From assembly GCF_001638985.1 (NCBI RefSeq), contig NW_017265135.1:3061545-3125544 (forward strand): a stretch of DNA of 64,000 nt. The letters run 5' to 3'. The stretch comes from Phycomyces blakesleeanus NRRL 1555(-) (taxonomy: Eukaryota; Mucoromycota; Mucoromycetes; Mucorales; Phycomycetaceae). Every line of letters starts with the position of its first letter. The stretch's first letter is position 1. Of this stretch, positions 1 through 33,718 are shown one piece after another. Both the position numbers and the translations under genes were made by a program. The notes under the pieces were generated by a model. It ran no database searches. It was not told where the DNA came from and was given only the letters and a program-made list of their open reading frames with translations.

Positions 1-602
1 AGGGGGGGGGGGGAATTATTATTAAATTTTTTAATCCTTTTTTTTTGTAAAACCCACCCCCCAATAATAAAAAATGTTTCCCTTTACCCCGGATTCGGGT
101 TCCTTGGGAAAGAAGACCCTCCCTCTTTTTTCAAAGGGGATGAGGTGTGCCCATGGTAATGGGGATGGGGAAAATTTTTTAGGCCCAAAAAAAAAAGGAG
201 GGGAAATTAAAAATTTAGGAAATTTTGGGCAAGTTTTTTTCCGGGGACCGGGGGAAAATTTTGGGCCTTTTGGATTCGGTTCAACCCCCTTTTGCTTTCC
301 CTTTTGGAAAGGCCTGGGGGCGCTTATTTGGGCTTGCTTTTTGCCCATGGAGGATATCCGGATTTCCGGATATATCCTTTGGGGCTCCCCCCCCCATTAA
401 GGTTTATATTCCCACGCCCCCCCTCATATATTTCCAGGTAAATTTCCATTTACATTTACATTCATTTCCTTTCTTTTACATATATATATAAAAACTTTTT
501 AACCTGGGATTAATGGTTAAGGAAGGAAATAATCCCCCCTTTTTAAAAATTAAAATAAAAAGGGGTTTGTTTGCCTTTAAAAGGGGGGGGGGGGGGGGGG
601 GG
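1..602. other. Low-quality contig end, corrupted mirror of 30,652-31,253
   Basis: Read in reverse complement this segment aligns almost base for base with 30,652-31,253 (start of SNT2 and its 5' flank), but a large fraction of positions are wrong. In the ~30 bases I compared next to the run, every wrong base equals an adjacent base of the clean copy, giving inflated runs of G, T, C and A. The corruption starts exactly where the 20-base G run (583-602) ends; from 603 inward the match to the other arm is clean. This is what out-of-phase reads after polymerase slippage would give. The open frames here should not be annotated as genes. Confidence 0.85.
583..602. repeat. 20-nt poly-G run
   Basis: An uninterrupted run of 20 G. 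It marks the border between clean mirror sequence (right) and error-rich mirror sequence (left). Its counterpart is the 20-nt C run at 30,652-30,671. Confidence 0.95.
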
Positions 603-840
603 CTTGATGATAATGGTGATATAATTGTAGTAATTTGCAAATATGCACTCGATATAAATTTTACTATACTTTAATAATAAGGCTTGGAAGGATCGAAGAA
701 TATTATTGTGTTTGCGTTTTTCTTGCATTTCTTATTAATGTATCCAAAGAAGTATATATTCAAGTCTCACATCCAATGTACACAAAGCCAAATCAAGATG
801 TCTAATAATAATAATAATAAGAAAAACAAGGGGATATATA

Positions 841-876
<36 letters not shown>

Positions 877-2112
877 TGTATGTATGTATGTATTTCCTTT
901 TATTCAAAATATATGTAAAGATATATATATATATATAAATGACTTGGTTACTATGAGATATTTTGGTTATTTGATTGACTTGAGGTAAGAAAAAAAAAGA
1001 CCCTGTTTGCTATAACCTTTGGCTTTAGTAGATACAAAAATTGCTTTCTTTCGTAAAGACATCAAAGACCATTACATGATCAACCTTTGACATCTTCCTT
1101 CATCTTCTTTTTATAATTTATTAGTCTACATTTGCCTGCGTTCTTTTCTTCCCTTTATATTTCGAATACCCTGCTAAACATTTTGTCGGTTTGTATTTTA
1201 TATAGTCTATGAAAATGACCTAAAATTTTTAAGTCTTTATAATGAAATTAGATGTGTATATTTGCTTATAAGCTCTTTTTATTTATTATTTATTGCTCTT
1301 AATATAAGTATGAAAGCTATCTATAATTGGCTTGCTTTTTTTTTGTAGAGTATAAACCTCATATATATAGTTTTCAAAAAGAAAGGCTCGAATTTAATAT
1401 TCAAATATCTCATTAACATATCTACAATCTGTAGCTCTCGTTCTCCCTCTTTTGTATCTTTTTTACTGACCAATAATTGAAAGAATGTCGGATTTGAAAG
1501 ACCAGATAACCAAAAAAAAAAGAATCTTGTACCCTTCGCTATCCAAAAGTATTATATATATACGTCTGTATATATAGGCACGCACACATATATTGATATA
1601 TTACTGAGGAGGTGTATACCACATGTAAAGCCAAATGCAATAAAATAACCTTTTTTTTTGTATTTTTATTCACAGAGAATATATAAATATATATATGGTT
1701 ATTCACTTGGTACTTCTTTTAGATCTTCATATTGATTATGTAGTCTATGTAAGTCTTTAATAACATTATCATGGAATCAAATGAAAGTACCAAAATGATC
1801 ATGTAGACTTAATTCAATATCAATTACACCTCTTCGCTCTCTCTCTCTTTCTCTCTATCTTTATCTCAAAAGTCTCAAATACTTTTATACAGTAATAATT
1901 ACTATATTATTAATATTATTTGTAAACATGCTTAATTGTCTGTCAAGTAATTACATAGAAATCAAAAAAAAAAATAAGGCTTGTAAATCAACCTTGCAAA
2001 TTACTTGTTTTTTATTGTAGTGTAAAAATTCATGTAGATTGTGTATAAATGAAAATATCTTGATCAATTTTTACTCTTTTCTTTTGGTTCGCCGCCTAAA
2101 TTATTCTATCAA
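603..2112. other. Non-coding flank shared by both repeat arms
   Basis: Mirror copy of 29,142-30,651. Contains a (TATG)n tract at about 846-890, ATA-type microsatellites and a CT-rich run near 1,832-1,856. I see no convincing gene; the short ORFs are low-complexity. On the other arm the same sequence is the upstream flank of SNT2. Confidence 0.7.
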
Positions 2113-5100
2113 CACCACAGCAGATTTTTTTGTGTAATCTTGTTCCTTAAAAGGATTCTTGTATACGGGGCGAATTTTGCCCATAACAGGAAATTCATTT
2201 TTTTGGGGGACTGAAAAGTGGGGGGATGGGGGGACTACTCTCGGCCAATAGATTTCGATTAAAAAATGTACTGCACAATTTCAAAAATGGTTCAAATTTT
2301 TAATTTGTTTCAAATAATTTTGGGTTGTAAAAAATTTATTTTTTATTTCGAAAAAAATTAGGCTAAAAAAAAGCTAGACTGGACCATAAAATCCACAGGC
2401 AGTAGCACACCAGTATATTCGTACCACTAGAAACACTAGTAGTATAACTGTTTGTACTTATGCCTGTAAATTACGTGATCGGTTTGCTGCAAACTACTAT
2501 GTCTAGCTAATCCAAGAGACCCGGTGCCAGAAATTCCAATAAACCCAAAGAGCATAAAGATTTGAATTTCGAGAAAAGCTAAAGCAGAAGAACTAATAAT
2601 TAGTAATTAAACTTAGTTATATATATTTAACAGAATTTTACCTTTGACTCTATTAAGGCATTTGCAATAAAAGGCAGCCAAATCTCTGCAAGTGAGGAGT
2701 AAATAGTTAGTCTTCTGTTGCTTTGTAAGAGGAACATGTAGTTATTACCTCTTTATTGATTTACCGAGATGATGAAAAACTAATTTATAAACTAGAATTG
2801 TATGATTAATAAACACAATGACATAAAAAACTTTGATAGCATAAATACCTTTGAGCTTACGGTCTTTAAGCAAAATTCTGCTTCTATAAATACTATAAGT
2901 ATACTGGAATATCTTACAAATGGAAGCTCATGCAAATAATAAATATTTTGTGGAAAAGTAAAATGAAAAAGAAGACAAAAACACGCGATATTTTCTTAAA
3001 AGAAAAGAAGTAAAAAAAATTCTAATTGGTCCGCTGACATTAAATATCGATCTTTCCACATTTTATAAATTCAATTATTTTCGCAAAGTCATTTTCCCCC
3101 CTTTGTTTTTACAATCAATTTACTATTATGCAAAAGAATACAAGACAAGAAACATATAAAATCGTTAAGACTCGCCCCCCTAAAAGGCAAGGCGAACTTA
3201 ACTTTAGCATCAATTCAGGTGTTTTTACCTGCTCTGAATGCGAAAAAGAGTTCGAAAAGCCTTGGTTACTGAAAAGGCATTCGAAGGTTCACCATATAAG
3301 TAATCAAATGGCAACCAATACTGTACTCGACGAACCCGAGCAGGCCGAATTGATAGTCGAGAACACTATTCCGGATGCTAATGCATTTGATTACTCGAGT
3401 GACGAAGATGACTCCTCCAGTATCGGGGATGAAGAAGACAACATTGTAGACGAGGAAAACGATATTGTCGATAATTTCTTTGATATTGAAATGAACAGTA
3501 ATCCAGTTTTCAACGCGTTCTCTGACATGTTTTCTTCTGCTGCTGCTGCTGATGAGGTATCAATGACCGATGATGACTCTGAGATCCCGGAAGAAGTCTT
3601 TGAGACAATTGGCGCTGTAAATGACCCTACAAGCTGTTATCCTTTTCGCGATCTTCAAACCATGATCCTTTTCGCTTTTATCGATGGGGATAATGACATG
3701 ATCTCCCAGCGAATGTTGAAGAAGATACTGCTTGCGATGAACTTGATCATTAAGATCCAGCAAGAAACTCCCATAGGAAGAACATTTAAGTTACCTCGTT
3801 TGGATGCTCTTTTAAATTATCAGGCAAGAAAGAAGTCCAAGATGCCTGTCTTTCCTTCACAAAGAATATCAGTACCTGGATCAAACGGGAACGCATTCGC
3901 CCACATTAACCTTCCGTCCGACCACTTGAGATTTCTTATGGCAAACCCAAAGAAATCCAAGTTGATCTCGTCCATGCCCGATCGTACCCCAAACCAATCG
4001 ATCTGTTTGGAACAAGGTGAAAAGTGGAGAACCCACCATCTCTTTCAGCAGCCTATGCACACTGTAAATGGTATAGATGTCTGGTTTGGAAACATCGTTT
4101 ACTTGAAGACAAACGATTGCAGCATCCGCTTTTTGGTTGAATCGTTCCACACGGCAAATAAAAACATTTTTGCGAGAGGGTATCTGGTCAGAGCGATTTC
4201 GATTGTATGCTATGGCGTTGAGGTTGCTGTTACCGATCTTAGAGTAGAGCAGATCTCTCACGTTGACACCACTCCTGTTGAAAGAGATCACTACTACAGT
4301 ATCTCAAGTAGCCTTACCAGATTGAGTCCTGCTCATGACTTTCTTCTTTTTGGAGTTCATCCAATGAAGAAGCCTATGCCTCTTTCTGTTTTGCCCGGTA
4401 ATGTAGATCGCGATGCAGTGTTTTACAAAGTTAGGATTGTTTCAATCATCCTTTTTACAGACGACACTTCCGGCAATCGTTCAAAGCAGTACAATCCGTT
4501 TGAAAGCTGGTTAATGAGATGCGCTGCCTTGCCTTTTAAGGATCGAAATTCGATAGCAAACATCCAGTTTCTTTCTACAATCCCTAAGAAAGATGGTGCA
4601 AATGGTATGTCTCTTCTGCCAGCAATCGTTGATGACTTTAAGAAACTCGAGAAAGGTGTAAAAATGTTCTCCGCTGAAGACAATGAGTATGTTCTGGTTG
4701 TTGCTCCCATCCTTTGGATTGAGGCTGACACGCCATGTCATTCGGAACTTTGCGGATTGCTTGGGCCGGCCACCACATTTCCTTGCAGAAGATGCTACAT
4801 CGAACTTAGACGTGCAAAAGACTTTGTGAAGGACTTGTCCTACTTCTGTGAGTGCCATGAGAGACGAACTCGAGAGCACTATGTTCTTGCAAACTCGTCA
4901 CCTGGCAGAGACACTGAGATCCCAAATGCTCCGAAAATTGGAATGAACACGCCTGCAAACGAGATAAGCTTTAGAGATCGTTCGACTGGCCGCTTATTAG
5001 AATTGCAGTCGTTTGATCCAGAAAAGGATACACCAGTGGAAATCCTCCACACGATACTTCTTGGTGTTGCAAAGTATATGGTAATTGACTTGGTTAAGGT

Positions 5101-6486
5101 CGTGCTTAAGAATGACACAGCCACAATAGCAAGACTTTCAGAATTCTTGACAGATTACACGCGATCAACTGGTCTATCAAGAAAGTTCACCCGAAACTTG
5201 AGACATAGTGGTTCATTCCTCGGTAGAGATTTCAAGGTTCTGCTTCAAATACTTCCTGTAATTCTGATTACAGAATTCTCTGGAAATCATGAGCTAGACC
5301 TTGTAATACCATGCTTTGTTGAACTTGGCCGATTGTGTTCTCTGGTATTCGTTCGTCAGGTGACATCAGACTTTGATAACTATATTATCAGAGTAGATAA
5401 TGCAGTGAAGCGCTTGATCAGAGCATTATTTGACTACGATAAAGGAACCAAGAACGAGCTCCACAAGGCATATTGCACCAAGCCGAAAGTTCATTACTTG
5501 ACACATCTCAAGGAAGATATAATTCGTTTTGGCCCAGCCCTCAATTATGAAACAGAAAAGGGCGAACAGTTCAATAAGCACATTCGCGAACATCTGTTTC
5601 ATACGAATCGCCAAAACACTTCCAGGGATGTTTGCCTAAAGTTTGCAAAGCAGGTAGCATTGCAACATGTAATTGACGGCGGGTCGTGGATTAATAGCTC
5701 TGGCAACCGAGAGAAGTCTGGAACTGGAATAGAGAGGTTCATTAAGGACAACAATGAATCTTTGTTCTATTACACCTTCTTTGGCGGCTCGAGAGAGCTA
5801 AAGGACAACAACGACACTGGAGATATTGAAGATGACGCCGTCCAAAACAACAGTTTTGGCGCGTTTGTTTTTAAAGATGATCCAATCTCTCGCCCTCGTA
5901 TAGGACTTGTCTCAGGCTCTGTTGTTAAGTTTCTTAGCATTGTTCCTCGTACGGATAATGACAGAAACAATAACTATGCCAAGGCTGTAATGACAGGTGA
6001 GCATTCTGATGTTGCTAACATGAATCTCGTTTGTAAGTTAGATTTGCACATTTTCCGCAACCCATTTTACATTGTAAATTTGAGCAAGTTCGGTTCCTAC
6101 TGGTTCATTTTCAATAATATTCTTTTTGATGAATAAAATGATGCTACTTCTTTATTATTATTATAATTATTATTTGAACCTTCTGTTTTCTTCTTCTCAA
6201 CATCAATTTTTTTGCGTAATTTCTGTGAAGTCATTTTTTGGTTACTCAAACCAACCCCCAACTTTCCTTAATAAATCCTTTGTCTCACTTGAACACTTTC
6301 TGACTTCCCTAACAGTTTTTTTTCTTACTTTAAAAGCCCACAAGTAGTACTGAACTTAATTTTATCCTTTATTCGGATGAAAAAAATTGAGTACGAAAAC
6401 AAATTACAATATTTTGGCCTCTAAGCCAATCATATTGCTTAGGTGCCAATTTTCACCCAAAATGATAACAAAAATCTCTGGTGGTG
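2113..6486 (+). mobile_element. DNA transposon, copy 1 (4.37 kb, imperfect TIRs)
   Basis: The left end begins CACCACAGCAGATTTTTTTG (2,113). The right end, read inward on the minus strand, begins CACCACCAGAGATTTTTGTT (from 6,486). These are imperfect terminal inverted repeats of roughly 24 bp. The right terminus coincides exactly with the point where the two arms stop being identical, which supports it as a true element end. The single large gene at 3,128-6,136 is the transposase. A subterminal hairpin with arms CTAAGC/GCTTAG sits near 6,420-6,441. I see no matching target-site duplication. The left end is less certain because the flank beyond it is also shared by both copies. Confidence 0.72.
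3128..6136 (+). CDS. Transposase-like protein with N-terminal C2H2 finger, copy 1
   Basis: Intact intronless 1,002-residue ORF. A C2H2 zinc finger lies at residues 35-55 (C35, C38, H51, H55), followed by a strongly acidic stretch at about 90-125. Motifs resemble fungal Plavaka/KDZ/Tnp2-related transposases: TDDTSGNRSK at 444-453 (candidate first catalytic Asp), D534 followed by a C-x2-C pair at C553/C556, TPVEILHTILLGVAKY at 635-650, and a later segment with HYLTHLK and a conserved YETEKGEQFNKH. Its likely job is to bind the element's ends through the finger and catalyse cut-and-paste transposition in the nucleus. The family placement rests on motif memory, not a search. With no stop or frameshift, it could still be active. 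Confidence 0.8.
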   Translation: MQKNTRQETYKIVKTRPPKRQGELNFSINSGVFTCSECEKEFEKPWLLKRHSKVHHISNQMATNTVLDEPEQAELIVENTIPDANAFDYSSDEDDSSSIGDEEDNIVDEENDIVDNFFDIEMNSNPVFNAFSDMFSSAAAADEVSMTDDDSEIPEEVFETIGAVNDPTSCYPFRDLQTMILFAFIDGDNDMISQRMLKKILLAMNLIIKIQQETPIGRTFKLPRLDALLNYQARKKSKMPVFPSQRISVPGSNGNAFAHINLPSDHLRFLMANPKKSKLISSMPDRTPNQSICLEQGEKWRTHHLFQQPMHTVNGIDVWFGNIVYLKTNDCSIRFLVESFHTANKNIFARGYLVRAISIVCYGVEVAVTDLRVEQISHVDTTPVERDHYYSISSSLTRLSPAHDFLLFGVHPMKKPMPLSVLPGNVDRDAVFYKVRIVSIILFTDDTSGNRSKQYNPFESWLMRCAALPFKDRNSIANIQFLSTIPKKDGANGMSLLPAIVDDFKKLEKGVKMFSAEDNEYVLVVAPILWIEADTPCHSELCGLLGPATTFPCRRCYIELRRAKDFVKDLSYFCECHERRTREHYVLANSSPGRDTEIPNAPKIGMNTPANEISFRDRSTGRLLELQSFDPEKDTPVEILHTILLGVAKYMVIDLVKVVLKNDTATIARLSEFLTDYTRSTGLSRKFTRNLRHSGSFLGRDFKVLLQILPVILITEFSGNHELDLVIPCFVELGRLCSLVFVRQVTSDFDNYIIRVDNAVKRLIRALFDYDKGTKNELHKAYCTKPKVHYLTHLKEDIIRFGPALNYETEKGEQFNKHIREHLFHTNRQNTSRDVCLKFAKQVALQHVIDGGSWINSSGNREKSGTGIERFIKDNNESLFYYTFFGGSRELKDNNDTGDIEDDAVQNNSFGAFVFKDDPISRPRIGLVSGSVVKFLSIVPRTDNDRNNNYAKAVMTGEHSDVANMNLVCKLDLHIFRNPFYIVNLSKFGSYWFIFNNILFDE

Positions 6487-7034
6487 AACAATTCAAGTCT
6501 GAGTATCCAATACATTTGCAATATTTCAAAACCAACAAGCTTATATATATGGACATATACATACATTATGTACATGTATGTGTATACTTGTGCATATGTA
6601 TGCATAATAGAGACATTTGCGTGTGTATACACAGGTAGGTAGGTTCAAGTAGTGCTGATAATGTCATTATTATTATTATCTCTTACTCCACTATATACAC
6701 CAAATATAATTCCAATTTTCTACTTTCTACCATTCTCAAAATATAGCTAGTATAATATTTCTTAGCAATACTTCTATTTCAATGAATAGATTTGAGCAAG
6801 AGGTAAATTATTATATATATATATATATATTTCAAAAAAATAAAAATAAAAAAATAAAGGTGAATAGTAAAGGCTAATTATATAGCTTGTAAGCCATCAA
6901 ACTATGTACAAGAAATAAATAAAGCTAAGAGTAATAATAATGATAGTAGTAAGTGTAATAAGAATAATAGGATTAATATGAATAGTAGAAAGAAATGATA
7001 GTAGACTATAGAAAGGAATAAGTAGTATTAAGTA
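6487..7034. other. Non-coding spacer between transposon and YTP1-like gene
   Basis: AT-rich sequence with TA and TAA/TAG microsatellites and a TG/TA-rich patch at 6,545-6,635. This is the unique right flank of transposon copy 1 and the probable 3' UTR/terminator region of the minus-strand gene ending at 7,035. No gene seen. Confidence 0.6.
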
Positions 7035-7706
7035 TTAAGCTTCATTCATGTAATAAGCTGCTCCATCGAGACCCACTCCACGAGACTTCTTTTGAGCCTT
7101 CTTCCGGTCCTCACGCTTCTTAGCCCATGCTTTGATAATCATCAAAAATGCAACATATCCAAGGGTCATTGAACTCAGCGCCACACAACCATTCATCATA
7201 AACATTGAGTCTACTTCATTACGGCGCAGCCAGGTCATGGTACCGGAATTGGAAGCCATAAATAGGATAGAACCTGCTATCAACAGGAAAGCACCAACCG
7301 CTTCACTTGGAGGCCGAGAAGGACTAGAATTGGTCGGGGGTGAAAGATACATGGTGACATATGTCACAAAGCGGAATACGGCTGCCATGGACAACAAAAG
7401 TCCCCACATGTAGTGCACCTGGGTTGAATATGCTGTGTCTTGATGGTGATTTCCCATCGAAATTCCAGTCATCAGTACAGTCAGAGCCGGGAAAGGGTTC
7501 ATGGAGAATGTCTGGGTCTGTTCATGCTTGGGTTCGTTGAGGGGTGTATCTTCAGTTCGACTCAATAATCTACGCAGAGTGCGACTCTCTACCAGAATAC
7601 CAACAAGACCACACCACCACCACCTAACAAATGTTTTTTAAATAAATTAATATAATTAGCTACCGTTTGCTTTTCTTTGCTCTCTCTTTTTTTTGTAAAA
7701 AATAAG

Positions 7707-7741
<35 letters not shown>

Positions 7742-9023
7742 ATTATGGCTTACATAAAGGCAAGACTAGCGTGTTCAAGATCCTTGTGGGTCCAGGCAGA
7801 ATCCTGTCCAAAGTGCTCCATCCATGTATTTGTGATACCGTATGTGAAAATTAAACCACACTCGATCATTTCAAAGCTGAATTTGCTACCATTGTCAACC
7901 CGATTCCACGCCCAGCCACGGTTTGCAAATGCACCAAGATAACGACCAAATGTAACGATGCCGTAAAAAAAGAAGATGCCACCCTTGATCAAGTGGGCAA
8001 TGCAGCCAAGAACAGCCCAAGAGCGACATACACCATGGTATACCACCAAACCCGACAGTGTTTGAACGAAGATAAGTACGGGAAACACACGACCGAGAAT
8101 CTGGTGGAAGTGGCGGAAACATGTGGTCGTCAAGGGATTGTGGGCCAGGGTCTTGAATACACGTTTGACACTATATGGAATTCGATTGGTAAAATCAAAG
8201 CGATGGTACCATCGAGACTTTGGCTGAATGTTGAGGTCTATGCTGTTCAAAGGATCGTCCTCTAGGCAATCGAATGCTTGATCGTCTTCGTCTTCTTCGT
8301 CTTCATTGTCTTCATGTTTTGTGAATGTATAGCCTTGGTCTTCACCATTGTGGTGCAGAGTATCCGCAGATGAGGATACACTGTGGCGGTCGGGGTGAGA
8401 GGATGAAGACGAGGACGAGGATCTGACCAACCGCACATTTTCGAGTTGGTCGTACGAGGACGTTGTGTTCATGCGACCGACTGCGTTTGCGACCTTTCGT
8501 AGCACACCTACGCTCATCTGAACAATCAGGAGTAAGAATAGAGACCAGCCCATGGAATGGTGTGAGTTTCCGGCATAAAGATGGGGTGTGGTATGGCCAT
8601 AAAGCTTAGCAAAGAAGAAACCAAACATGGCTGTGATAAAGCACAGAATTTGTGTGGGCAAATGAAGTGAAGATCTAGCAATACCAAACATGACACCTGC
8701 TCATTGTTCGTTAGAAGAAGAAGAAGCAATGCATTATATTCAATAATAAAAACTAGTAATAGTGATAAAGGTAACAATAAGAAGGAGTAAAATGAGGGTT
8801 TACCTATAGGTAACAACACCCAAAAGGCCAAGACCATGAAAATCACATGAAGGTAAAAGTATCCTTTATATTCAGGAAACAGAGAATAAGACATTGGTTC
8901 AGTTCCTGTGGAATTGAAGGCAGGCATTGGAGGGTCTTCCATTGAATGGGCATGCTGAGCAGCTACTATTTGGGCCAATATTAGGCTTACAAGAACTGTG
9001 TAAATATATGACAGTCGAGCCAT
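7035..9023 (-). CDS. YTP1-like multi-pass membrane protein (DUF2427 + Ytp1 domains)
   Basis: Three exons on the minus strand (9,023-8,804; 8,696-7,754; 7,623-7,035) join in frame to 583 residues. The start ATG at 9,023 opens a typical signal peptide (LSYIYTVLVSLILAQIVAA). Several membrane segments follow (HVIFMVLAFWVLLPI, ILCFITAMFGFFFAKLYG, SLFLLLIVQMSVGVLRK), then an acidic, Ser-rich loop of about 100 residues. The Ytp1-type second half contains HFHQILGRVFPVLIFVQTLS and WTHKDLEHASLAFM, and six or so further helices. The tail is Lys-rich (KKREDRKKAQKK). Fungal proteins of this architecture are cytochrome b561-like membrane proteins of unknown function; the His residues in the helices would fit haem binding, but that is inference. 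A domain search would settle the family. Confidence 0.82.
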
Positions 9024-10683
9024 CTTCAAAGAAGAAGGAGAAGAAAAAGGAAAAAAGGAAAAAAAAAAAGAATAAGAAGCAAAGGATGCCCTTTGTAAGA
9101 AGAAGTGTGTGGTTATTCTTTTACTTCTATCCTTTCCTCTTTATATATTTGGTTTTTTTTTTTTTTACTTTTTTTTTGTGCAGCAAGACTTTTCTTTTTA
9201 TATATATACATATCAATATTATATATTTTTTAATAGCGGTTGCTACATATATCCGACATGACGGGGCATCATGTCATTTTTTGAATACTCTATCAATTGA
9301 CTGAAACATCAATGATTTTGCCTGCTTAGAATTGTATAAATGATACAAAAAATACCTCTTTATGAAATTGACCAGTAATTCGGCTTAAATTCTCGTATGC
9401 TTCATTTGTCTAGACAAGATACAAATGCACATCATCTACCAAGAAAGATAATGATAATAAAATGAAGCAAAGCGATTATATATATTATATAAAAATATAT
9501 ATAGTATAATCCGGATAAATTGGGATAACTTTTTCCAGCAACCTCCGTCTTCAATTCTGTTGTGGACAATTCATTGTTCCGTTTTGTCGAAGGGCGATCC
9601 CTTTCTCTCTATATCTTCTTTTTTCTTCTTTTTTATTTATTTATATAGCTATTATTATTATTTTATCACTTTATTTTTTTTTATTACTTGCGCACACACT
9701 TCTTTATTTTTCGGTTTACTTTCTTGACGCGGTTAATTTTTATGCATTTGATTGACTGTGATGACGCAAGATCAGTTATTCAAAATGTGAATGTATTTTG
9801 TGTTTTTGATAATTGGGATAGAATAAGGATTACTTGCATAATTCATCATACATATCAAAAAGGTATAATATAAATATATATATATAAAATGTTTCAACCC
9901 AAATCCAAAACACACACACACAAAAAATTTCTTACTTACTCACTACACTAACTCACTCACTCACTCAATTAAATTGTTACAATTTCTTGGTATTCTGGTT
10001 GTTGTTTTTTTTGTACCACATTGTACAACTCTATATCCACATCCACACCAACACCAAAACCAACACCCACACCCACACCCACCCACACACAAAACTTTGA
10101 ATTACAAAAAAAAACATATACTATATATGTGTGTATAAAAATTGAAATGGAAATATTAAGCATTTTTAGGATGTTTTTTAAAAAAAAGATGAATAGTCAA
10201 TAGTCAAGTGTATCTAATATGACTTTGATAGATACGTTCTTTTGTTCTTATGTTCTTGTTTTGTTTCTTTTTGTTTGGTTTGTAGTCTAGACAACCATAT
10301 ACAAATAATGATATCAATTCTCTTCAGGGGTTGTGTTCGGACCATCGATTTCCCGTCAAAAATACAAAAAAAAAGTGACGGATAAATAAACGGTTTCAAG
10401 CAGTCAAAGGCCATCAAAGAAGACCGTCAGATAATCGGACATATCATGTCACCCCTTCTATTGTGTTCCATGATTCCGAGAGAGAGAAGGAGAGAGAAAA
10501 AAAACTTGTAACTCTTTATAATCGGATAAACTGTGTAAATACAGATGGTTTAATCGCTTTTTTTTGGGTTATCGGCAATACGTTTTGTAAAGATGTGTGT
10601 GTGCGTTCGGAAAGACGACCGTTTGTACGTACGTATGTGTGTGTGTGTGTAAAGAGGTCTAGAATATATACTACTCGGTTGCT
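9024..10683. other. Intergenic: YTP1-like promoter and PEX10 3' side
   Basis: Holds the upstream region of the minus-strand YTP1-like gene and the downstream region of PEX10. Contains A/T runs, an ACTC-rich tract at 9,938-9,965, a (CACCCA)n-like tract at 10,036-10,085 and a (TG)n tract at 10,630-10,650. I found no further gene. Confidence 0.55.
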
Positions 10684-12230: not shown

Positions 12231-12759
12231 TATGATCAAGTAAGCATATAAAAAGTTATGTGTGGAACTTTGACTATTTGTCGTTTGTGGGGAACATTCT
12301 CACGTGAATTAGAGTGGATTTGTGTGTGCTAAAAAAATAATTAATATATATATATACTTTTCATATATATATATATATGATTTTTATATTTTTTTATGTT
12401 TATTTATTAATTTATTAATGAACGAGTTATTGATGTTGAATGGCATTTTCGTGAATAAAGAAATGGAGTAGCAGATGAGGCTATCCATGAAAGTTGTGTG
12501 GGAAGTTTGGGGGGAATTGATGGTTAAGTCTAGAGACAAAAGTATGGGAATGTTGAATTACAAATACATAGGATAAAAAAGAAGTAATAATAATAATAAT
12601 AGTAATAACTGTAAGGCAAGGCAAAGCAAGGCAAGGCAATGAAATAAAAGCAGATAGATATAGTACAAAGAAGTAAAAGAAATGAGGAAGGCAAAAAGTA
12701 CTTTTGGGGGGTTGGTTGTTTGGGGGGTTAACTAAATTTTTTTTTCTTTTTTCTGGTTT
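12231..12759. other. Intergenic: PEX10 promoter / bZIP 3' side
   Basis: About 530 bp between PEX10 (starting at 12,230, minus) and the stop of the bZIP gene (12,760). Contains a run of GGCAA-type repeats near 12,613-12,640 and TA tracts at 12,345-12,380. No gene seen. Confidence 0.55.
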
Positions 12760-20256: not shown

Positions 20257-20259
20257 TAA

Positions 20260-22570: not shown

Positions 22571-23608
22571 ATGACTCCAACTGTTCGCCCGCAGCATCCT
22601 ACTACTGGCCATCAGCCAATTCCTCGTATATTGCCAACTCCATTGAAGGTCCCGGATGATTGGAAACCACCCGTCTTATTACGTCAGGATGCCTTTCAAT
22701 TAGAATGCGATTTGGAGGAATCGGGATTGTTTGAAGCGATTGCTAATGGAACCTACAATGAATTTGGACACGACCTTGACTCGGACAGCCTTTCGATTTC
22801 GACCCAGCAAAGTCTGAATGGAAGATCAAGGTGTCGCCTTTGTCGGAAGATCAGTAATCCCAGTACGATGCGTTATGTTTCCCCTACTCAGAGTCTAACA
22901 CCTCGGTGAGTAATAAAAAGAAAAGAAAATACTAATAACAATAATAACAATAACAATAATAATAGTAATATATAGATTGAATGGCACACACCACAATAAA
23001 AAAAAAAAGAACAATATAAATAAAATGAGCACGTTTGATTAACACTTTCTTAGAGGTTATTACGTTGATGATCGTTGTCTTCGGTACCTGATCCACAGTG
23101 TTCATTCATTGCCTTTACGAGATTCTCAAATGCAACAGAATCAGCAAAGTTACCAGCAACAGCAGCAGCAAGAAAATAAACGGGAGCAAGAACGAAAGAC
23201 AAAAAGGCACAGTGGACTGCGGTGGATGTTTGTAGGCGGAATCACATTGGCTGTATATACATGCTATCTTGTTCACGATTGCACCACGATGCGAGTTGTG
23301 GCCCCTTCAGAACTGGGATCACCTACTTCTACAGGAAGACCAGCACCAGACTATGTTTGGATTCCGGTAAGATGATGAAATATTGCATTGCGCTTTATTA
23401 ATTTATTATCTAAATTGAATACAAACATTACGATGATATATATTTAAATATATTTATATAGATACCAGACAAGGCGTGCTACAAGTCCAGTTTGGCCGGA
23501 AGATTTTTATCGTTTATCTTCTCTACCCAGTCTTTTGTAATGTTAATTATACTTGGTATGGCATTTCTGTATGTCCAAGTCGTTGTTCGTCACCGACGCA
23601 TTTTTTGA
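22571..23608 (+). CDS. Unknown membrane protein with two predicted TM segments
   Basis: Three exons (22,571-22,905; 23,054-23,366; 23,462-23,608) join cleanly in frame to 264 residues. The N-terminal part is Pro-rich, then acidic. A CRLC pair followed by RKISNPSTMRYVSPTQSLTP spans the first splice junction and leads into GYYVDDRCLRYLIHSVHSLP. A Gln-rich, then Lys/Arg-rich segment precedes TM1 (LRWMFVGGITLAVYTCYLVH). TM2 lies near the C-terminus (FVMLIILGMAFLYVQVVV) and ends in a short basic tail (RHRRIF). No family recognised. The clean splice sites and conserved-looking segments argue that it is a real gene. Confidence 0.72.
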
Positions 23609-24020
23609 ATACTTTCAAAGAGACCAACCAAAAAAAAAGAAAAGAAGAAGAACATGAAAGAAAGACAAGGTCAAATGAGAAAGATAAAGAAAAGTTCATT
23701 CCTCCCTTCCTTTCCCCCCTTTTTTTACTTTCTTTTCTTAGTAATCTTCTTTTTGATTTAAATACGTTTTGGTAGTAATTGAAAAAAAAAATGGCAACTG
23801 GTGTATATTTTTTTCTCTTAAAGAAATTCTTTAGATATTATTTTCATATGTATACCCACACTTATCATTTCACACACACACACAGTATACTCACCCACTC
23901 ACTAAGATACATAATCACTCACACACAAACACAAACACCTTGTTAATTTCAACCCATTTTTGATTTTAATTTTTTTTTTAAAAAAAAAGAAAAATAATAA
24001 ATTGTTATGATAATAAATTG

Positions 24021-24034
24021 GTTACCATGGAAAC
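24021..24034. promoter_or_regulatory. X-box-like palindrome (RFX-type site)
   Basis: GTTACCATGGAAAC matches the X-box form GTTNCCATGGNAAC bound by RFX-family winged-helix factors (Crt1/Sak1-type in fungi). It is a 13-of-14 palindrome lying 61 bp left of a second site. No gene start is obvious nearby, so the target is unknown. Confidence 0.55.
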
Positions 24035-24094
24035 GTTTCTTTTTTTCTTTTTCTTTTGGTTATAAAAATAAAGTTGTGTTTTGTTGTGGAGACG

Positions 24095-24108
24095 GTTTCC
24101 ATGGAAAC
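24095..24108. promoter_or_regulatory. Perfect X-box palindrome (RFX-type site)
   Basis: GTTTCCATGGAAAC is a perfect 14-bp palindrome matching the RFX X-box form. It is 74 bp from the first site, centre to centre (about seven helical turns). A weaker third copy (GTCACCATGGAAAA) lies at about 24,342. Confidence 0.6.
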
Positions 24109-24767
24109 AAGAATAATAATATAAAATGAAAGCGTCTGAAGCTATTGGCTGAAACAGTATACTTTATATGCCCGCTCTACTTTCTATTTTATTTTTTTCC
24201 TTTTTGTAATGAAACGGAGGTGAATGAAATGAACTAAACAACAAGGTACACGAGCCAAAAAAAAAGGACATTGTAATTAGGGCCTTTTTTATATATAAAT
24301 GTATGTATACTCTGTTTGTTTGATTTACTAACTTATACTTGTCACCATGGAAAAACACGTACACACGTACACACGTATACACACATATACATATAAACAC
24401 ATAAACATATAAACACACACATATATATAGTTGATCTTCATTTATGATACGTTGGTGTTCATGAAATTTAGACTTTTTTTTTTGGTTTTTCTGTCTCTTT
24501 ACTTGTGACAAAATAACCTCGAATAGCTGAGTTTACAACACAACGTGGCCCTCGATGTATCATTAATAAATCTACGCACTAATGTCTTTTCATTGATTGA
24601 TTGATTTTTATATATATATGTATATACATCGATTGATCGATTGATCGAATGTTTGATTGTAAAGGGCAGTCAATAGACAAGTCATTGTACCGTTGTACTG
24701 TTATCGATCCAATGAGATATTGAAAAATACCATGCCGGAAGGGTGGCCAGGAATGGGATGGTGTGTA

Positions 24768-27700
24768 CACCACCAGAGATTTTTGTTATCATTTTGGGTG
24801 AAAATTGGCACCTAAGCAATATGATTGGCTTAGAGGCCAAAATATTGTAATTTGTTTTCGTACTCAATTTTTTTCATCCGAATAAAGGATAAAATTAAGT
24901 TCAGTACTACTTGTGGGCTTTTAAAGTAAGAAAAAAAACTGTTAGGGAAGTCAGAAAGTGTTCAAGTGAGACAAAGGATTTATTAAGGAAAGTTGGGGGT
25001 TGGTTTGAGTAACCAAAAAATGACTTCACAGAAATTACGCAAAAAAATTGATGTTGAGAAGAAGAAAACAGAAGGTTCAAATAATAATTATAATAATAAT
25101 AAAGAAGTAGCATCATTTTATTCATCAAAAAGAATATTATTGAAAATGAACCAGTAGGAACCGAACTTGCTCAAATTTACAATGTAAAATGGGTTGCGGA
25201 AAATGTGCAAATCTAACTTACAAACGAGATTCATGTTAGCAACATCAGAATGCTCACCTGTCATTACAGCCTTGGCATAGTTATTGTTTCTGTCATTATC
25301 CGTACGAGGAACAATGCTAAGAAACTTAACAACAGAGCCTGAGACAAGTCCTATACGAGGGCGAGAGATTGGATCATCTTTAAAAACAAACGCGCCAAAA
25401 CTGTTGTTTTGGACGGCGTCATCTTCAATATCTCCAGTGTCGTTGTTGTCCTTTAGCTCTCTCGAGCCGCCAAAGAAGGTGTAATAGAACAAAGATTCAT
25501 TGTTGTCCTTAATGAACCTCTCTATTCCAGTTCCAGACTTCTCTCGGTTGCCAGAGCTATTAATCCACGACCCGCCGTCAATTACATGTTGCAATGCTAC
25601 CTGCTTTGCAAACTTTAGGCAAACATCCCTGGAAGTGTTTTGGCGATTCGTATGAAACAGATGTTCGCGAATGTGCTTATTGAACTGTTCGCCCTTTTCT
25701 GTTTCATAATTGAGGGCTGGGCCAAAACGAATTATATCTTCCTTGAGATGTGTCAAGTAATGAACTTTCGGCTTGGTGCAATATGCCTTGTGGAGCTCGT
25801 TCTTGGTTCCTTTATCGTAGTCAAATAATGCTCTGATCAAGCGCTTCACTGCATTATCTACTCTGATAATATAGTTATCAAAGTCTGATGTCACCTGACG
25901 AACGAATACCAGAGAACACAATCGGCCAAGTTCAACAAAGCATGGTATTACAAGGTCTAGCTCATGATTTCCAGAGAATTCTGTAATCAGAATTACAGGA
26001 AGTATTTGAAGCAGAACCTTGAAATCTCTACCGAGGAATGAACCACTATGTCTCAAGTTTCGGGTGAACTTTCTTGATAGACCAGTTGATCGCGTGTAAT
26101 CTGTCAAGAATTCTGAAAGTCTTGCTATTGTGGCTGTGTCATTCTTAAGCACGACCTTAACCAAGTCAATTACCATATACTTTGCAACACCAAGAAGTAT
26201 CGTGTGGAGGATTTCCACTGGTGTATCCTTTTCTGGATCAAACGACTGCAATTCTAATAAGCGGCCAGTCGAACGATCTCTAAAGCTTATCTCGTTTGCA
26301 GGCGTGTTCATTCCAATTTTCGGAGCATTTGGGATCTCAGTGTCTCTGCCAGGTGACGAGTTTGCAAGAACATAGTGCTCTCGAGTTCGTCTCTCATGGC
26401 ACTCACAGAAGTAGGACAAGTCCTTCACAAAGTCTTTTGCACGTCTAAGTTCGATGTAGCATCTTCTGCAAGGAAATGTGGTGGCCGGCCCAAGCAATCC
26501 GCAAAGTTCCGAATGACATGGCGTGTCAGCCTCAATCCAAAGGATGGGAGCAACAACCAGAACATACTCATTGTCTTCAGCGGAGAACATTTTTACACCT
26601 TTCTCGAGTTTCTTAAAGTCATCAACGATTGCTGGCAGAAGAGACATACCATTTGCACCATCTTTCTTAGGGATTGTAGAAAGAAACTGGATGTTTGCTA
26701 TCGAATTTCGATCCTTAAAAGGCAAGGCAGCGCATCTCATTAACCAGCTTTCAAACGGATTGTACTGCTTTGAACGATTGCCGGAAGTGTCGTCTGTAAA
26801 AAGGATGATTGAAACAATCCTAACTTTGTAAAACACTGCATCGCGATCTACATTACCGGGCAAAACAGAAAGAGGCATAGGCTTCTTCATTGGATGAACT
26901 CCAAAAAGAAGAAAGTCATGAGCAGGACTCAATCTGGTAAGGCTACTTGAGATACTGTAGTAGTGATCTCTTTCAACAGGAGTGGTGTCAACGTGAGAGA
27001 TCTGCTCTACTCTAAGATCGGTAACAGCAACCTCAACGCCATAGCATACAATCGAAATCGCTCTGACCAGATACCCTCTCGCAAAAATGTTTTTATTTGC
27101 CGTGTGGAACGATTCAACCAAAAAGCGGATGCTGCAATCGTTTGTCTTCAAGTAAACGATGTTTCCAAACCAGACATCTATACCATTTACAGTGTGCATA
27201 GGCTGCTGAAAGAGATGGTGGGTTCTCCACTTTTCACCTTGTTCCAAACAGATCGATTGGTTTGGGGTACGATCGGGCATGGACGAGATCAACTTGGATT
27301 TCTTTGGGTTTGCCATAAGAAATCTCAAGTGGTCGGACGGAAGGTTAATGTGGGCGAATGCGTTCCCGTTTGATCCAGGTACTGATATTCTTTGTGAAGG
27401 AAAGACAGGCATCTTGGACTTCTTTCTTGCCTGATAATTTAAAAGAGCATCCAAACGAGGTAACTTAAATGTTCTTCCTATGGGAGTTTCTTGCTGGATC
27501 TTAATGATCAAGTTCATCGCAAGCAGTATCTTCTTCAACATTCGCTGGGAGATCATGTCATTATCCCCATCGATAAAAGCGAAAAGGATCATGGTTTGAA
27601 GATCGCGAAAAGGATAACAGCTTGTAGGGTCATTTACAGCGCCAATTGTCTCAAAGACTTCTTCCGGGATCTCAGAGTCATCATCGGTCATTGATACCTC

Positions 27701-29141
27701 ATCAGCAGCAGCAGCAGAAGAAAACATGTCAGAGAACGCGTTGAAAACTGGATTACTGTTCATTTCAATATCAAAGAAATTATCGACAATATCGTTTTCC
27801 TCGTCTACAATGTTGTCTTCTTCATCCCCGATACTGGAGGAGTCATCTTCGTCACTCGAGTAATCAAATGCATTAGCATCCGGAATAGTGTTCTCGACTA
27901 TCAATTCGGCCTGCTCGGGTTCGTCGAGTACAGTATTGGTTGCCATTTGATTACTTATATGGTGAACCTTCGAATGCCTTTTCAGTAACCAAGGCTTTTC
28001 GAACTCTTTTTCGCATTCAGAGCAGGTAAAAACACCTGAATTGATGCTAAAGTTAAGTTCGCCTTGCCTTTTAGGGGGGCGAGTCTTAACGATTTTATAT
28101 GTTTCTTGTCTTGTATTCTTTTGCATAATAGTAAATTGATTGTAAAAACAAAGGGGGGAAAATGACTTTGCGAAAATAATTGAATTTATAAAATGTGGAA
28201 AGATCGATATTTAATGTCAGCGGACCAATTAGAATTTTTTTTACTTCTTTTCTTTTAAGAAAATATCGCGTGTTTTTGTCTTCTTTTTCATTTTACTTTT
28301 CCACAAAATATTTATTATTTGCATGAGCTTCCATTTGTAAGATATTCCAGTATACTTATAGTATTTATAGAAGCAGAATTTTGCTTAAAGACCGTAAGCT
28401 CAAAGGTATTTATGCTATCAAAGTTTTTTATGTCATTGTGTTTATTAATCATACAATTCTAGTTTATAAATTAGTTTTTCATCATCTCGGTAAATCAATA
28501 AAGAGGTAATAACTACATGTTCCTCTTACAAAGCAACAGAAGACTAACTATTTACTCCTCACTTGCAGAGATTTGGCTGCCTTTTATTGCAAATGCCTTA
28601 ATAGAGTCAAAGGTAAAATTCTGTTAAATATATATAACTAAGTTTAATTACTAATTATTAGTTCTTCTGCTTTAGCTTTTCTCGAAATTCAAATCTTTAT
28701 GCTCTTTGGGTTTATTGGAATTTCTGGCACCGGGTCTCTTGGATTAGCTAGACATAGTAGTTTGCAGCAAACCGATCACGTAATTTACAGGCATAAGTAC
28801 AAACAGTTATACTACTAGTGTTTCTAGTGGTACGAATATACTGGTGTGCTACTGCCTGTGGATTTTATGGTCCAGTCTAGCTTTTTTTTAGCCTAATTTT
28901 TTTCGAAATAAAAAATAAATTTTTTACAACCCAAAATTATTTGAAACAAATTAAAAATTTGAACCATTTTTGAAATTGTGCAGTACATTTTTTAATCGAA
29001 ATCTATTGGCCGAGAGTAGTCCCCCCATCCCCCCACTTTTCAGTCCCCCAAAAAAATGAATTTCCTGTTATGGGCAAAATTCGCCCCGTATACAAGAATC
29101 CTTTTAAGGAACAAGATTACACAAAAAAATCTGCTGTGGTG
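24768..29141 (-). mobile_element. DNA transposon, copy 2 (4.37 kb)
   Basis: Mirror of copy 1. The left terminus here is CACCACCAGAGATTTTTGTT (24,768). The right terminus ends CAAAAAAATCTGCTGTGGTG (29,141). The element is flanked by GTGTGTA on the left and TTGATAG on the right, with no obvious target duplication. It sits about 2 kb upstream of the SNT2 start codon, in the opposite transcriptional orientation. Confidence 0.72.
25118..28126 (-). CDS. Transposase-like protein with N-terminal C2H2 finger, copy 2
   Basis: Identical in translation to the ORF at 3,128-6,136 over all 1,002 residues: C2H2 finger (35-55), acidic region, candidate catalytic Asp residues (445/446 and 534), C-x2-C at 553-556 and the TPVEILHTILLG motif. 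Transcribed on the minus strand, away from SNT2. Complete identity means either a very recent transposition or duplication, or that one copy is an assembly duplicate of the other. Confidence 0.8.
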   Translation of the reverse strand: MQKNTRQETYKIVKTRPPKRQGELNFSINSGVFTCSECEKEFEKPWLLKRHSKVHHISNQMATNTVLDEPEQAELIVENTIPDANAFDYSSDEDDSSSIGDEEDNIVDEENDIVDNFFDIEMNSNPVFNAFSDMFSSAAAADEVSMTDDDSEIPEEVFETIGAVNDPTSCYPFRDLQTMILFAFIDGDNDMISQRMLKKILLAMNLIIKIQQETPIGRTFKLPRLDALLNYQARKKSKMPVFPSQRISVPGSNGNAFAHINLPSDHLRFLMANPKKSKLISSMPDRTPNQSICLEQGEKWRTHHLFQQPMHTVNGIDVWFGNIVYLKTNDCSIRFLVESFHTANKNIFARGYLVRAISIVCYGVEVAVTDLRVEQISHVDTTPVERDHYYSISSSLTRLSPAHDFLLFGVHPMKKPMPLSVLPGNVDRDAVFYKVRIVSIILFTDDTSGNRSKQYNPFESWLMRCAALPFKDRNSIANIQFLSTIPKKDGANGMSLLPAIVDDFKKLEKGVKMFSAEDNEYVLVVAPILWIEADTPCHSELCGLLGPATTFPCRRCYIELRRAKDFVKDLSYFCECHERRTREHYVLANSSPGRDTEIPNAPKIGMNTPANEISFRDRSTGRLLELQSFDPEKDTPVEILHTILLGVAKYMVIDLVKVVLKNDTATIARLSEFLTDYTRSTGLSRKFTRNLRHSGSFLGRDFKVLLQILPVILITEFSGNHELDLVIPCFVELGRLCSLVFVRQVTSDFDNYIIRVDNAVKRLIRALFDYDKGTKNELHKAYCTKPKVHYLTHLKEDIIRFGPALNYETEKGEQFNKHIREHLFHTNRQNTSRDVCLKFAKQVALQHVIDGGSWINSSGNREKSGTGIERFIKDNNESLFYYTFFGGSRELKDNNDTGDIEDDAVQNNSFGAFVFKDDPISRPRIGLVSGSVVKFLSIVPRTDNDRNNNYAKAVMTGEHSDVANMNLVCKLDLHIFRNPFYIVNLSKFGSYWFIFNNILFDE

Positions 29142-30377
29142 TTGATAGAATAATTTAGGCGGCGAACCAAAAGAAAAGAGTAAAAATTGATCAAGATATT
29201 TTCATTTATACACAATCTACATGAATTTTTACACTACAATAAAAAACAAGTAATTTGCAAGGTTGATTTACAAGCCTTATTTTTTTTTTTGATTTCTATG
29301 TAATTACTTGACAGACAATTAAGCATGTTTACAAATAATATTAATAATATAGTAATTATTACTGTATAAAAGTATTTGAGACTTTTGAGATAAAGATAGA
29401 GAGAAAGAGAGAGAGAGCGAAGAGGTGTAATTGATATTGAATTAAGTCTACATGATCATTTTGGTACTTTCATTTGATTCCATGATAATGTTATTAAAGA
29501 CTTACATAGACTACATAATCAATATGAAGATCTAAAAGAAGTACCAAGTGAATAACCATATATATATTTATATATTCTCTGTGAATAAAAATACAAAAAA
29601 AAAGGTTATTTTATTGCATTTGGCTTTACATGTGGTATACACCTCCTCAGTAATATATCAATATATGTGTGCGTGCCTATATATACAGACGTATATATAT
29701 AATACTTTTGGATAGCGAAGGGTACAAGATTCTTTTTTTTTTGGTTATCTGGTCTTTCAAATCCGACATTCTTTCAATTATTGGTCAGTAAAAAAGATAC
29801 AAAAGAGGGAGAACGAGAGCTACAGATTGTAGATATGTTAATGAGATATTTGAATATTAAATTCGAGCCTTTCTTTTTGAAAACTATATATATGAGGTTT
29901 ATACTCTACAAAAAAAAAGCAAGCCAATTATAGATAGCTTTCATACTTATATTAAGAGCAATAAATAATAAATAAAAAGAGCTTATAAGCAAATATACAC
30001 ATCTAATTTCATTATAAAGACTTAAAAATTTTAGGTCATTTTCATAGACTATATAAAATACAAACCGACAAAATGTTTAGCAGGGTATTCGAAATATAAA
30101 GGGAAGAAAAGAACGCAGGCAAATGTAGACTAATAAATTATAAAAAGAAGATGAAGGAAGATGTCAAAGGTTGATCATGTAATGGTCTTTGATGTCTTTA
30201 CGAAAGAAAGCAATTTTTGTATCTACTAAAGCCAAAGGTTATAGCAAACAGGGTCTTTTTTTTTCTTACCTCAAGTCAATCAAATAACCAAAATATCTCA
30301 TAGTAACCAAGTCATTTATATATATATATATATCTTTACATATATTTTGAATAAAAGGAAATACATACATACATACA

Positions 30378-30413
<36 letters not shown>

Positions 30414-31098
30414 TATATATCCCCTTGTTTTTCTTATTATTATTATTATTAGACATCTTGATTTGGCTTTGTGTACATTGGATGTGAGACTTGAATATAT
30501 ACTTCTTTGGATACATTAATAAGAAATGCAAGAAAAACGCAAACACAATAATATTCTTCGATCCTTCCAAGCCTTATTATTAAAGTATAGTAAAATTTAT
30601 ATCGAGTGCATATTTGCAAATTACTACAATTATATCACCATTATCATCAAGCCCCCCCCCCCCCCCCCCCCTCTCAATGTCAATCATACTCTTTTTATTT
30701 TAATTTTTATAATGTGAGTATTATTTCATTCATTATCTATTATTCACAGTTTAAATAGTTTTTATATATATATGTAAATGAATGTAAATGAATGTAAATG
30801 TAAATGTAAATTTACATGTAATTATATGAGTGTGTGCGTGGGAGTATAAGCGTTAATGTGAGTGTGAGCACAAATGTATATATCTGTATATCTGTATATC
30901 TTCTATGGCTAATAAGCAAGCACAAATAAGCGCACCTAGGCCTTTCAAAAGGGGAAGGCAAAGGTGGGTTGATCGGATTCTAAATGTCCCAGTATTTTCT
31001 CTCGTTCTCTGTATATAAGCTTGCCTAAATTTTCTTAATTTTTTATTTTCCCTTCTTTTTTTTTTTGGTCTTAAAAACTTCTCCTCATCACCATCACC
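29142..31098. other. SNT2 upstream region
   Basis: Clean version of the flank also seen at the left end of the window. Contains a long (CATA)n tract at 30,364-30,407, the 20-nt C run at 30,652-30,671, GTAAAT/GAAT repeats at 30,774-30,812 and a T-rich stretch just before the SNT2 start. No gene seen. Confidence 0.6.
30652..30671. repeat. 20-nt poly-C run
   Basis: Uninterrupted run of 20 C, mirror of the G run at 583-602. It is the exact border beyond which the left-arm copy becomes error-rich. Confidence 0.95.
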
Positions 31099-33718
31099 AT
31101 GGCCACACCTCATCCCATTGCAGAAATGAGGCAGGCTCTTCTTTCCGATGGAACCGTAGTCCGGGTTAATGGTAAGCATTTTTTATTATTGGTGGTTGGA
31201 TTTGACAAGAAAAATGTATTAAATATTTTATTATTATTTCTCTCTCTCTCTTATGTCTTTGTCTCTGTTTCTAACTTGTCCTATTTTTTTAAAAAAATAA
31301 ATTAAAAAAATAAATAAAGACCATGTCTTCCTGGCGTCGGAGCACTTGGGTGAGCCCTATCATGTCGGGCGTATCATGGAGTTTCCGGTTGTTGTGGCGG
31401 GCAAGGGGCAGCAAGCTCGAATTGCCTGGTTCAATCGACCAAAGGATGTGGTGAATCGAAAGCACCATGATCCTCGACTCTTGTTCGCCACCATGCAGTC
31501 AGATCTCAACCCAGTGAGTGCAATCCGAGGCAAGTGTACGGTCACCCATAAGCACTACATTGGAAAGGAAGGACTGGAAATGTATCGATCATTGGAGGAT
31601 CATTTTTATTTCCATCGTCTCTACGATCGGTACATGCAAAGAATGTACGAAGTCGTAGCATGTGAGGCCGTACAGAACGTACCTCTGGCAATCCAGACTG
31701 CCTTAAGAGAACGGTATCAGTTTGTTGTTGTGGAGCAAGCTATTGCAGATGACTTGATAGTCGACCGATGTAACTGCTGTATGTGTGACGAGTGGTGTGC
31801 GAGGTAAATGTTCATGATTCTCCTCCCCCTCCTCTCTCCTCCCTCCCCCTCTATCTCTCTATTTCACACCATCTCTATCTCTCTATTTCACACCATCTCT
31901 TTCTGTCTCTTTACATATCTTCATCGCTATATCTTCTTTATACATTCGCATACCTACATACCTACATCCCTACATTAAATTTCTACATAAATATTGCTCT
32001 CTATAAAAGAAAGAAAAAAGAATAGAGAATAAGAAAAGATCAAAAACCCCCAACGACAACAACAACAACAAACAACAACAAAATCCCCCTTCTCTTTTAG
32101 AGGTTGTTGGTTTAATGATGATGAAGATGAAGAAGATGATAAATAGACATTTGCTTTTCTTTGTTTTCAAAAATTATAACAATTATATATATATATTCAC
32201 ATTTTTGTTTGTATTCTCATCAGTGCCAAGTCGGTCAAATGTGCAGCATGTTTAAAAAGTTACCATATGTCTTGTCTCAATCCTCCTCTTCTTCGAAAGC
32301 CTTCCAAAGGCTTTGCCTGGCAGTGCGCCTCGTGTACTAGAGAAGAGCTCCTGGGAGGCTCATCCCAGAACACGTCCACTCCGTCTGAGAGTGACAGCAG
32401 TTCGAATAGCTCAAAGCCTGTTTCCTCCTCTCGTCCTAAACGACAAACCCGCACTGCCACGCGTGCAAATGTCACAAAAACAACCCAAAAACAGATCAAG
32501 AAAAGGGTCGCGCCTACAGAACCTAGACACACACCAAAAGGTAGAGTACCCCAGTCAAAATAGATATTACAAATAAATAGAAAAGAAAAAGGGATTTTGT
32601 TTTTTTTTGTTAAAAGATAGATAGTTAGATAAATACCTAAATACATAAAATAAAGAAATAAAATAAAATAAATAAAGACATAAGAAGAAGAAAAAGGTCA
32701 ATGTATCTATCTTTGACTGTGCGAGTGAGTATGAGTATGAGTATGAGTATGAGTATGAGTGAGTGTGAGTGTGAGCGAAGTGATAGTGAGAGTACATAGT
32801 GTTAATATCTATCGTATACATGTCCTCATTGATCAATACATGATTGATTCAAATCTATCTTCTTTAATTAGCACCAGAAGAAATGACAATGACTGCAATG
32901 TGGCCATTCCGTTACTTCAACATGAGCACCCAACTCCTGGATATTGAATGTACGCCGAATCTGCCCATTTTATTTACTATTTACTATTTACTATTTACTA
33001 TTCATTTTAATTTTCTACATCTTTCTTTCTCTCTCTCTTTTGTATATATATACATTATTTATATACATATGCTTTGCAGTCACATCTAACACCATTAATA
33101 CTATCAAATGTAGCCAACAACAACTGCTATCCACATGCGAAGAGTCGTATAGGAGCAAAATACCAGGCTGATACCCCTGATTTTAAGTTGGAAGAGGCCT
33201 TGGCCATTGTCGACCAAAGTCGGTCTTCTACACCCCTGACAACAGAAGAGATTTCCCAGGAATCATTTGGCAAAGTTCAAAAACGCAGGTACAATAAGCG
33301 GGTCGGTCGACCCATAAAACGACGTTCAGGTATGTCATTTATTTGTGTACATATATATATATACATATCACTTCATTTCACAGTGTGGATTTGTGTATGT
33401 AAACATGCATACACACGCACATATAAACATATAAGCATAAAGCATATTCATTTATAAATAATAATATTGACATTAGCATTAGCATTATAATTATTAAGAA
33501 TAACAATCATAATATTAACTTATTACAAAATAATGATAATAATTATGCTTTTTTTTCTTATAAAAATAACAATAATAACCAGCTACTAGCCCTAATCCTT
33601 CCAAGGAACCAGAACAGGAAGAAGTCGAAGAAGAGAATGCCCCTATAGCTCGTGGAACAGACGCCACATTGAGTCCAATGTTTAGACGTACGCAATGGAC
33701 AGATGATACCCAAGGTAT

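Follow-up and report, generated by a model that had tools for sequence, protein, structure and literature searches.

An apparent giant palindrome between inverted transposons of Phycomyces blakesleeanus is very probably an assembly artefact

Introduction

Does the genome of Phycomyces blakesleeanus NRRL 1555(-) carry a giant palindrome, or has one stretch of DNA been written twice in its reference assembly? The question is raised by 64,000 bp of contig NW_017265135.1 (assembly GCF_001638985.1), hereafter called the window and, with the contig designated C2, located at C2:3061545-3125544. Near its start, two inverted copies of a DNA transposon stand on either side of a unique segment (the spacer), and the DNA that leads from the right-hand copy into an SNT2-like gene is met again beyond the left-hand copy. 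We found that this mirror, taken as a palindrome of the chromosome, is very probably an artefact of assembly. It is highly probable that one SNT2 flank was assembled twice beside a gap and that the spacer between the inverted transposons is printed inverted relative to its state at insertion, through a flip in the assembly or in the chromosome itself; what the locus actually contains is two identical young transposons in opposite orientation whose target duplications have been exchanged, next to a gap.

Results

Comparison of the window with itself gave a single dominant inverted match, in which 13-6490 was paired with 31240-24764 at 98.13% identity over 6,479 columns; the second-largest repeat, of 212 bp, was far below it. 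A constant mirror sum of 31,254 had been reported in the preliminary description of this DNA and proved to be exact: with the mate of position i at 31254 - i, all 5,884 positions of 603-6486 were identical to 24768-30651. When 1-6530 was aligned in this way, 155 mismatches were counted, 125 of them within 1-581 and the remaining 30 beyond 6486, outside the repeat, and a single indel was present at 562. The mirror takes in the element (2113-6486), then 1,510 bp of outer flank copied cleanly (603-2112), and finally a 602-bp tail that is degraded, 1-602 being a poor copy of 30652-31253. As in a palindrome, it continues past the mobile element into unique DNA, 603-2112 being an exact mirror of 29142-30651; the outer boundary of a palindrome arm would, however, lie within continuous, well-supported sequence, and the left arm enters a run of 4,120 unspecified bases (Ns) through the degraded tail. 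The earlier claim that about 2.1 kb of outer flank is mirrored up to the window edge was thus borne out for 603-2112, with 1-602 a degraded copy only; likewise, exon 1 of the SNT2-like gene does lie within the mirrored part, but its copy falls wholly within the degraded tail and cannot be read. The genome (53.5 Mb in 60 contigs) was searched with the non-element flank, simple repeats being skipped, and nine matches were obtained, of which the two long ones were the two arms and the other seven were short (30 to about 125 bp).

The first base of the window is an edge of the sequence, all of the preceding 4,120 bases (C2:3057425-3061544) being N. We take these Ns to be a scaffold gap, because a degraded tail adjoins them on one side and a contig stops within a repeat on the other, both of which fit a gap. 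The errors of the tail were highly ordered: 119 mismatches were found in 569 sites compared, and 118 of the 119 carried the true base of one step earlier in the outward direction, as against a mean of 48.7 (standard deviation 4.8, largest value 63) in 2,000 shuffles. When polymerase slips in a homopolymer, a lagged and mixed trace is obtained in the downstream part of the read, and the one-base lag of 1-582 fits an outward-running read stuttering after the G20 run, as in such a trace. The sequencing method was presumably Sanger shotgun. The word Sanger has no occurrence in PMC10386755 or PMC3597544. PacBio assemblies exist for strains L51 and UBC21 (PMC11258239). Repeat-induced point mutation (RIP) or other mutation was rejected as the source of the mismatches in 1-582, since 118 of 119 repeat a neighbouring true base; RIP was also rejected because the changes extend beyond C-to-T and G-to-A, in a change table that includes the 30 positions past the repeat. 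A second G20 run, equal in length to the one at which the tail degrades, is located inside the spacer (21764-21783).

On the scaffold to the left of the Ns, the 5′ part (2,710 bp) of the same transposon was found on the same strand (C2:3054715-3057424), preceded by a flank that differs from the SNT2 flank. This flank occurs once in the genome: when its last 1 kb was searched, the sole full-length match among 56 rows was the flank itself, the other 55 being short. With this second piece of element and its own flank, two different 5′ flanks compete for the element beside the left spacer end. The left-of-gap copy agreed with the window type at 15 of 15 diagnostic sites (14 substitutions and one indel, element positions 233-1599) and with the type of C44:182256 at 6 of 6 (element positions 1792-2632), with the haplotype changing somewhere in element positions 1599-1792, some 0.9-1.1 kb short of the contig end. 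Next to a gap, such a switch is explained more simply by a walk into reads that belong to another copy. The transposase frame of this copy contains a stop.

The two bases on either side of the element were then compared among its other copies in the genome. Element end matches numbered 39 and 40 among those listed, and 30 loci (L028-L057) were fetched, 28 of them two-ended (3,841-9,153 bp; insertions, or a deletion, are present in some) and two one-ended (L056, L057). Both window copies and the left-of-gap copy were excluded from the count as the object of study; also left out were a C31 copy whose two ends are separated by about 15.6 kb, two partial C50 matches, and distant matches (68-86% identity) at C1:1792526, C15:586267 and C31:260116 and on C9, C12, C25, C32 and C36. 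In all 28 two-ended copies the dinucleotide on one side equalled that on the other (TA in 15, TT in 6, AA in 4 and AT in 3). At the locus itself the flanking dinucleotides, read in element orientation, were TA left of the gap, AA at the left spacer end, AA on the SNT2 side and TA at the right spacer end. As assembled, the pairs are TA/AA and AA/TA, both mismatched; paired crosswise, they are TA/TA and AA/AA. Inverted copies stand at both breakpoints (Table 1) and their duplications match crosswise, as exchanged duplications do. Were the assembled order the untouched insertion state, mutation would be needed to produce this pattern. A weaker control is provided by two inverted copies that lie about 19 kb from each other on C30 and match directly (L037 TA/TA, L048 AA/AA); weaker, because these copies resemble each other less and point toward each other with their 5′ rather than their 3′ ends. 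Three older copies, L050 and L052 (both on C2) and L054 (C15), share an almost identical target flank (TTGATATA / TAGTGATA), and may either lie within copies of a different repeat or have been duplicated along with it.

The 4,374 bp of the window copies were also found without any difference at L028 (C17:444026-448399) and L029 (C16:402315-406688), and the comparison suggests very recent transposition. Since these copies on other contigs are equally identical, the identity of the element in the two arms is no evidence of duplication.

Table 1. Features of the apparent palindrome and its surroundings (window coordinates).
Feature	Position	Strand	Basis or remark
Degraded copy of 30672-31253, contig end adjoining 4,120 Ns	1..582	.	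Mismatch pattern, Ns
G20 homopolymer, where degradation starts; mate C20 at 30652-30671	583..602	.	
Clean copy of SNT2-side flank	603..2112	.	0 mismatches to 29142-30651; no third long copy among matches listed
Transposon, left copy, 4,374 bp, CACCAC...GTGGTG	2113..6486	+	Boundaries from 28 two-ended copies
Transposase open reading frame, left copy, 1,002 amino acids	3128..6136	+	
3′ target dinucleotide of left copy, AA	6487..6488	+	
Spacer, 18,281 bp, orientation doubtful	6487..24767	.	Orientation from target dinucleotides
3′ target dinucleotide of right copy, TA	24766..24767	-	
Transposon, right copy, 4,374 bp	24768..29141	-	Identical to left copy
Transposase open reading frame, right copy	25118..28126	-	Frame 25118-28210; ATG by mirror of 3128
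5′ target dinucleotide, SNT2 side, AA in element orientation (TT on + strand)	29142..29143	-	From mirror copy
SNT2-side flank, part copied at 1-2112	29142..31253	+	Self-comparison, genome search
Exon 1 of SNT2-like gene	31099..31171	+	Exon end by eye from GT splice site

The element belongs to the CACTA-type DNA transposons, is RAG1-like and duplicates 2 bp of its target. Pfam at E 0.001 gave no name for its transposase. The N-terminus has a C2H2 finger with a weak Pfam match, and a BAH-like region is predicted at residues about 308-418; by sequence, residues 281-425 matched no family, BAH included, up to E 10. The catalytic part is predicted to have a RAG1-like fold, and a RAG1/Transib-like fold was obtained for the modelled transposase by fold comparison; a sequence profile of the catalytic part run against solved structures found no relative, giving two zinc-finger matches up to E 1. 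Both the C(2)C motif (C553xxC556) and the H(3-4)H motif (H789xxxH793), which in the CMCT clade lie between the second D and the last E, were found, together with D534 and E810/E813, their roles being assigned by position and order only, and all of these residues except C553 were nearly invariant in 20 homologues.

As outlined in a passage of PMC12730594, the CMCT clade comprises EnSpm/CACTA, Mirage, Chapaev, Transib, Plavaka, ESTA and Lanisha. The element resembles this clade in its CA..TG termini, in a target duplication within the 2-5 bp range (2 bp in all of the two-ended copies), in its C(2)C and H(3)H motifs and in its predicted RAG1-like fold. EnSpm, PlavakaA, PlavakaB and ESTA are set apart from it by the descriptions given in the same passage. 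EnSpm/CACTA proper has a 3-bp target duplication, whereas the window element has 2 bp, and the window transposase scored 14.2 bits against Pfam tnp2, under the 28.6-bit cut-off. PlavakaA ends in TGT..ACA and PlavakaB in CATCA..TGATG, in contrast to CACCAC..GTGGTG here, and Pfam Plavaka matched one of the 20 homologues and not the window transposase. ESTA has a TA duplication, unlike 13 of the 28 copies counted here, which have TT, AA or AT.

The spacer encodes a YTP1-like protein (Pfam YTP1), a bZIP protein (Pfam bZIP) and a RING-type open reading frame labelled PEX10-like by eye. Its terminal 1-kb stretches are single copy, with one full-length genome match each (in 8 and 12 rows, respectively). 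Downstream of exon 1, the SNT2-like gene has BAH, GATA and extended-PHD Pfam domains, and its BAH exon has one match in the genome. P. blakesleeanus is said to have a whole-genome duplication. In a gene-order check for a paralogous block, the BAH exon, the YTP1-like frame and a frame near the right spacer end each had one genome match and the bZIP frame had itself and four weaker matches on other contigs; no paralogous block was found by this check. Elsewhere in the window, a tandem repeat occupies 43958-44360 (194-bp unit, 2.1 copies, 83% alike) and the hexamer TGTGCC is repeated 17.5 times at 53432-53536.

Discussion

We propose that the printed order arose in the following way. The unique segment of 18.3 kb would lie between two oppositely oriented copies of a young DNA transposon, and the 4.37-kb element would have been too long and too identical for ordinary reads to resolve. 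The assembler would have run from the left spacer end through the element into the SNT2 flank, and a stuttering outward read would then have ended that walk at the gap; the right spacer end would also have been linked, via the element, to the same SNT2 flank. The order in the insertion state would be left-of-gap flank, element, spacer (from its right end to its left end), element and SNT2, the spacer being placed inverted because the 2-bp target duplications match crosswise only. An assembly error, sited at the transposon and the low-quality end, had already been preferred over a true palindrome in the preliminary description; this preference is in keeping with the gap and the second flank to the left of it, with the stutter tail and with the haplotype switch. 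That description had also taken the left arm as false and the right arm as the true junction. The duplications say the reverse, the AA of the left spacer end going with the AA on the SNT2 side and the TA of the right spacer end with the TA left of the gap; judged from these duplications, the left arm (SNT2 flank, element, left spacer end) would be an insertion junction and the right arm would not. Reads running outward from 6,600, which had been suggested as a test, would not be decisive, since the same SNT2 junction follows from a spacer in the other orientation: if the spacer is oppositely oriented, reads entering the SNT2 flank are expected without any palindrome.

Repeat-induced misjoins or inversions occur in shotgun assemblies. 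This locus is like them in having identical inverted repeats longer than the reads, a contig end at Ns, a degraded end and a haplotype switch nearby; it differs in that the 2-bp target duplications show, without reads, which junctions pair. On a linkage map of Phycomyces, possible assembly inversions were described on scaffolds 3 and 5 and repeats were blamed (PMC3597544); the passages of that paper on inversions make no mention of scaffold 2, whose number may not correspond to that of contig C2.

Several points weigh against an assembly in which the flank was written twice and the spacer inverted. The gap is our own reading of the Ns, and the haplotype switch to the left of it could instead be gene conversion. 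Four unrelated dinucleotides, drawn at the observed frequencies, would give the crosswise pattern in about 4.8% of cases. Furthermore, the distance from the left-of-gap flank to SNT2 is 35,971 bp as assembled versus 27,029 bp in the proposed order, an excess of 8,942 bp to which the element piece contributes 2,710 bp, the Ns 4,120 bp and the copied flank 2,112 bp; if the 4,120 Ns were a measured distance, a true extra segment would fit better.

What turned the spacer is inferred, whereas the identical arms, the Ns, the stutter pattern, the second flank and the crosswise duplications were observed. There is about an even chance that the flip was the assembler's; a tentative alternative is that the inversion is real, or mixed, and arose when the elements recombined, and some other origin is improbable. 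If the inversion was real, recombination between the inverted elements flipped the 18.3-kb spacer. Either the right arm then represents the present chromosome, the left arm having been misjoined, or nuclei of both orientations coexist and junctions of the two kinds were mixed in the assembly. The window copies are long, identical and inverted, and coexisting orientations would account for both spacer ends being joined to the same SNT2 flank. On the other hand, a plain assembly flip yields the same pattern, signs of assembly error are seen on both sides of the Ns, and the crossover point is unmappable because the two window copies are identical. A precedent is provided by Drosophila, where a passage of PMC3355041 terms exchanged target duplications unequivocal evidence of inversion by ectopic recombination. 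Inversion 2s, as described there, likewise has inverted copies around a unique segment and exchanged target duplications; its duplications are of 9 bp, in contrast to 2 bp here, and here the junctions themselves are in doubt. As a special case, which we consider unlikely, the segment with the YTP1-like and bZIP genes would be invertible in the sequenced strain through recombination of the two identical inverted RAG1-like transposons, both orientations coexisting among nuclei and the two SNT2 junctions representing one orientation each. P. blakesleeanus is a multinucleate fungus.

The version favoured in the preliminary description, a plain chimera in which the spacer is correctly oriented, nothing was rearranged and the left arm alone is wrong, appears very unlikely. 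It is served well by the Ns, the degraded end and the rival flank left of the gap, but it predicts that the flank left of the gap pairs with the left spacer end and SNT2 with the right spacer end, and both pairs mismatch (TA/AA and AA/TA) as against 28 matching pairs out of 28 elsewhere, so that it is contradicted by the target dinucleotides unless these were mutated at both copies. Least probable, to a degree at which we hardly credit it, is a true inverted duplication, in which about 2.1 kb or more of SNT2 flank and the element were copied to the left of the spacer to give arms of about 6.5 kb: the sequence as printed and the room for extra DNA in the stated gap length favour it, whereas zero differences across 1,510 bp of clean flank, a copy ending in a degraded tail at Ns and a rival flank of the same element directly left of the Ns speak against it, and the target mismatch of the right arm is left unexplained.

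On this reading, the reference genome is freed of a palindrome that does not exist and of a spurious partial duplicate of a chromatin gene. Even without reads, target duplications of 2 bp can help to assign junctions at inverted repeats. Should the inversion prove true, the locus would represent a transposon-driven rearrangement in a model fungus.

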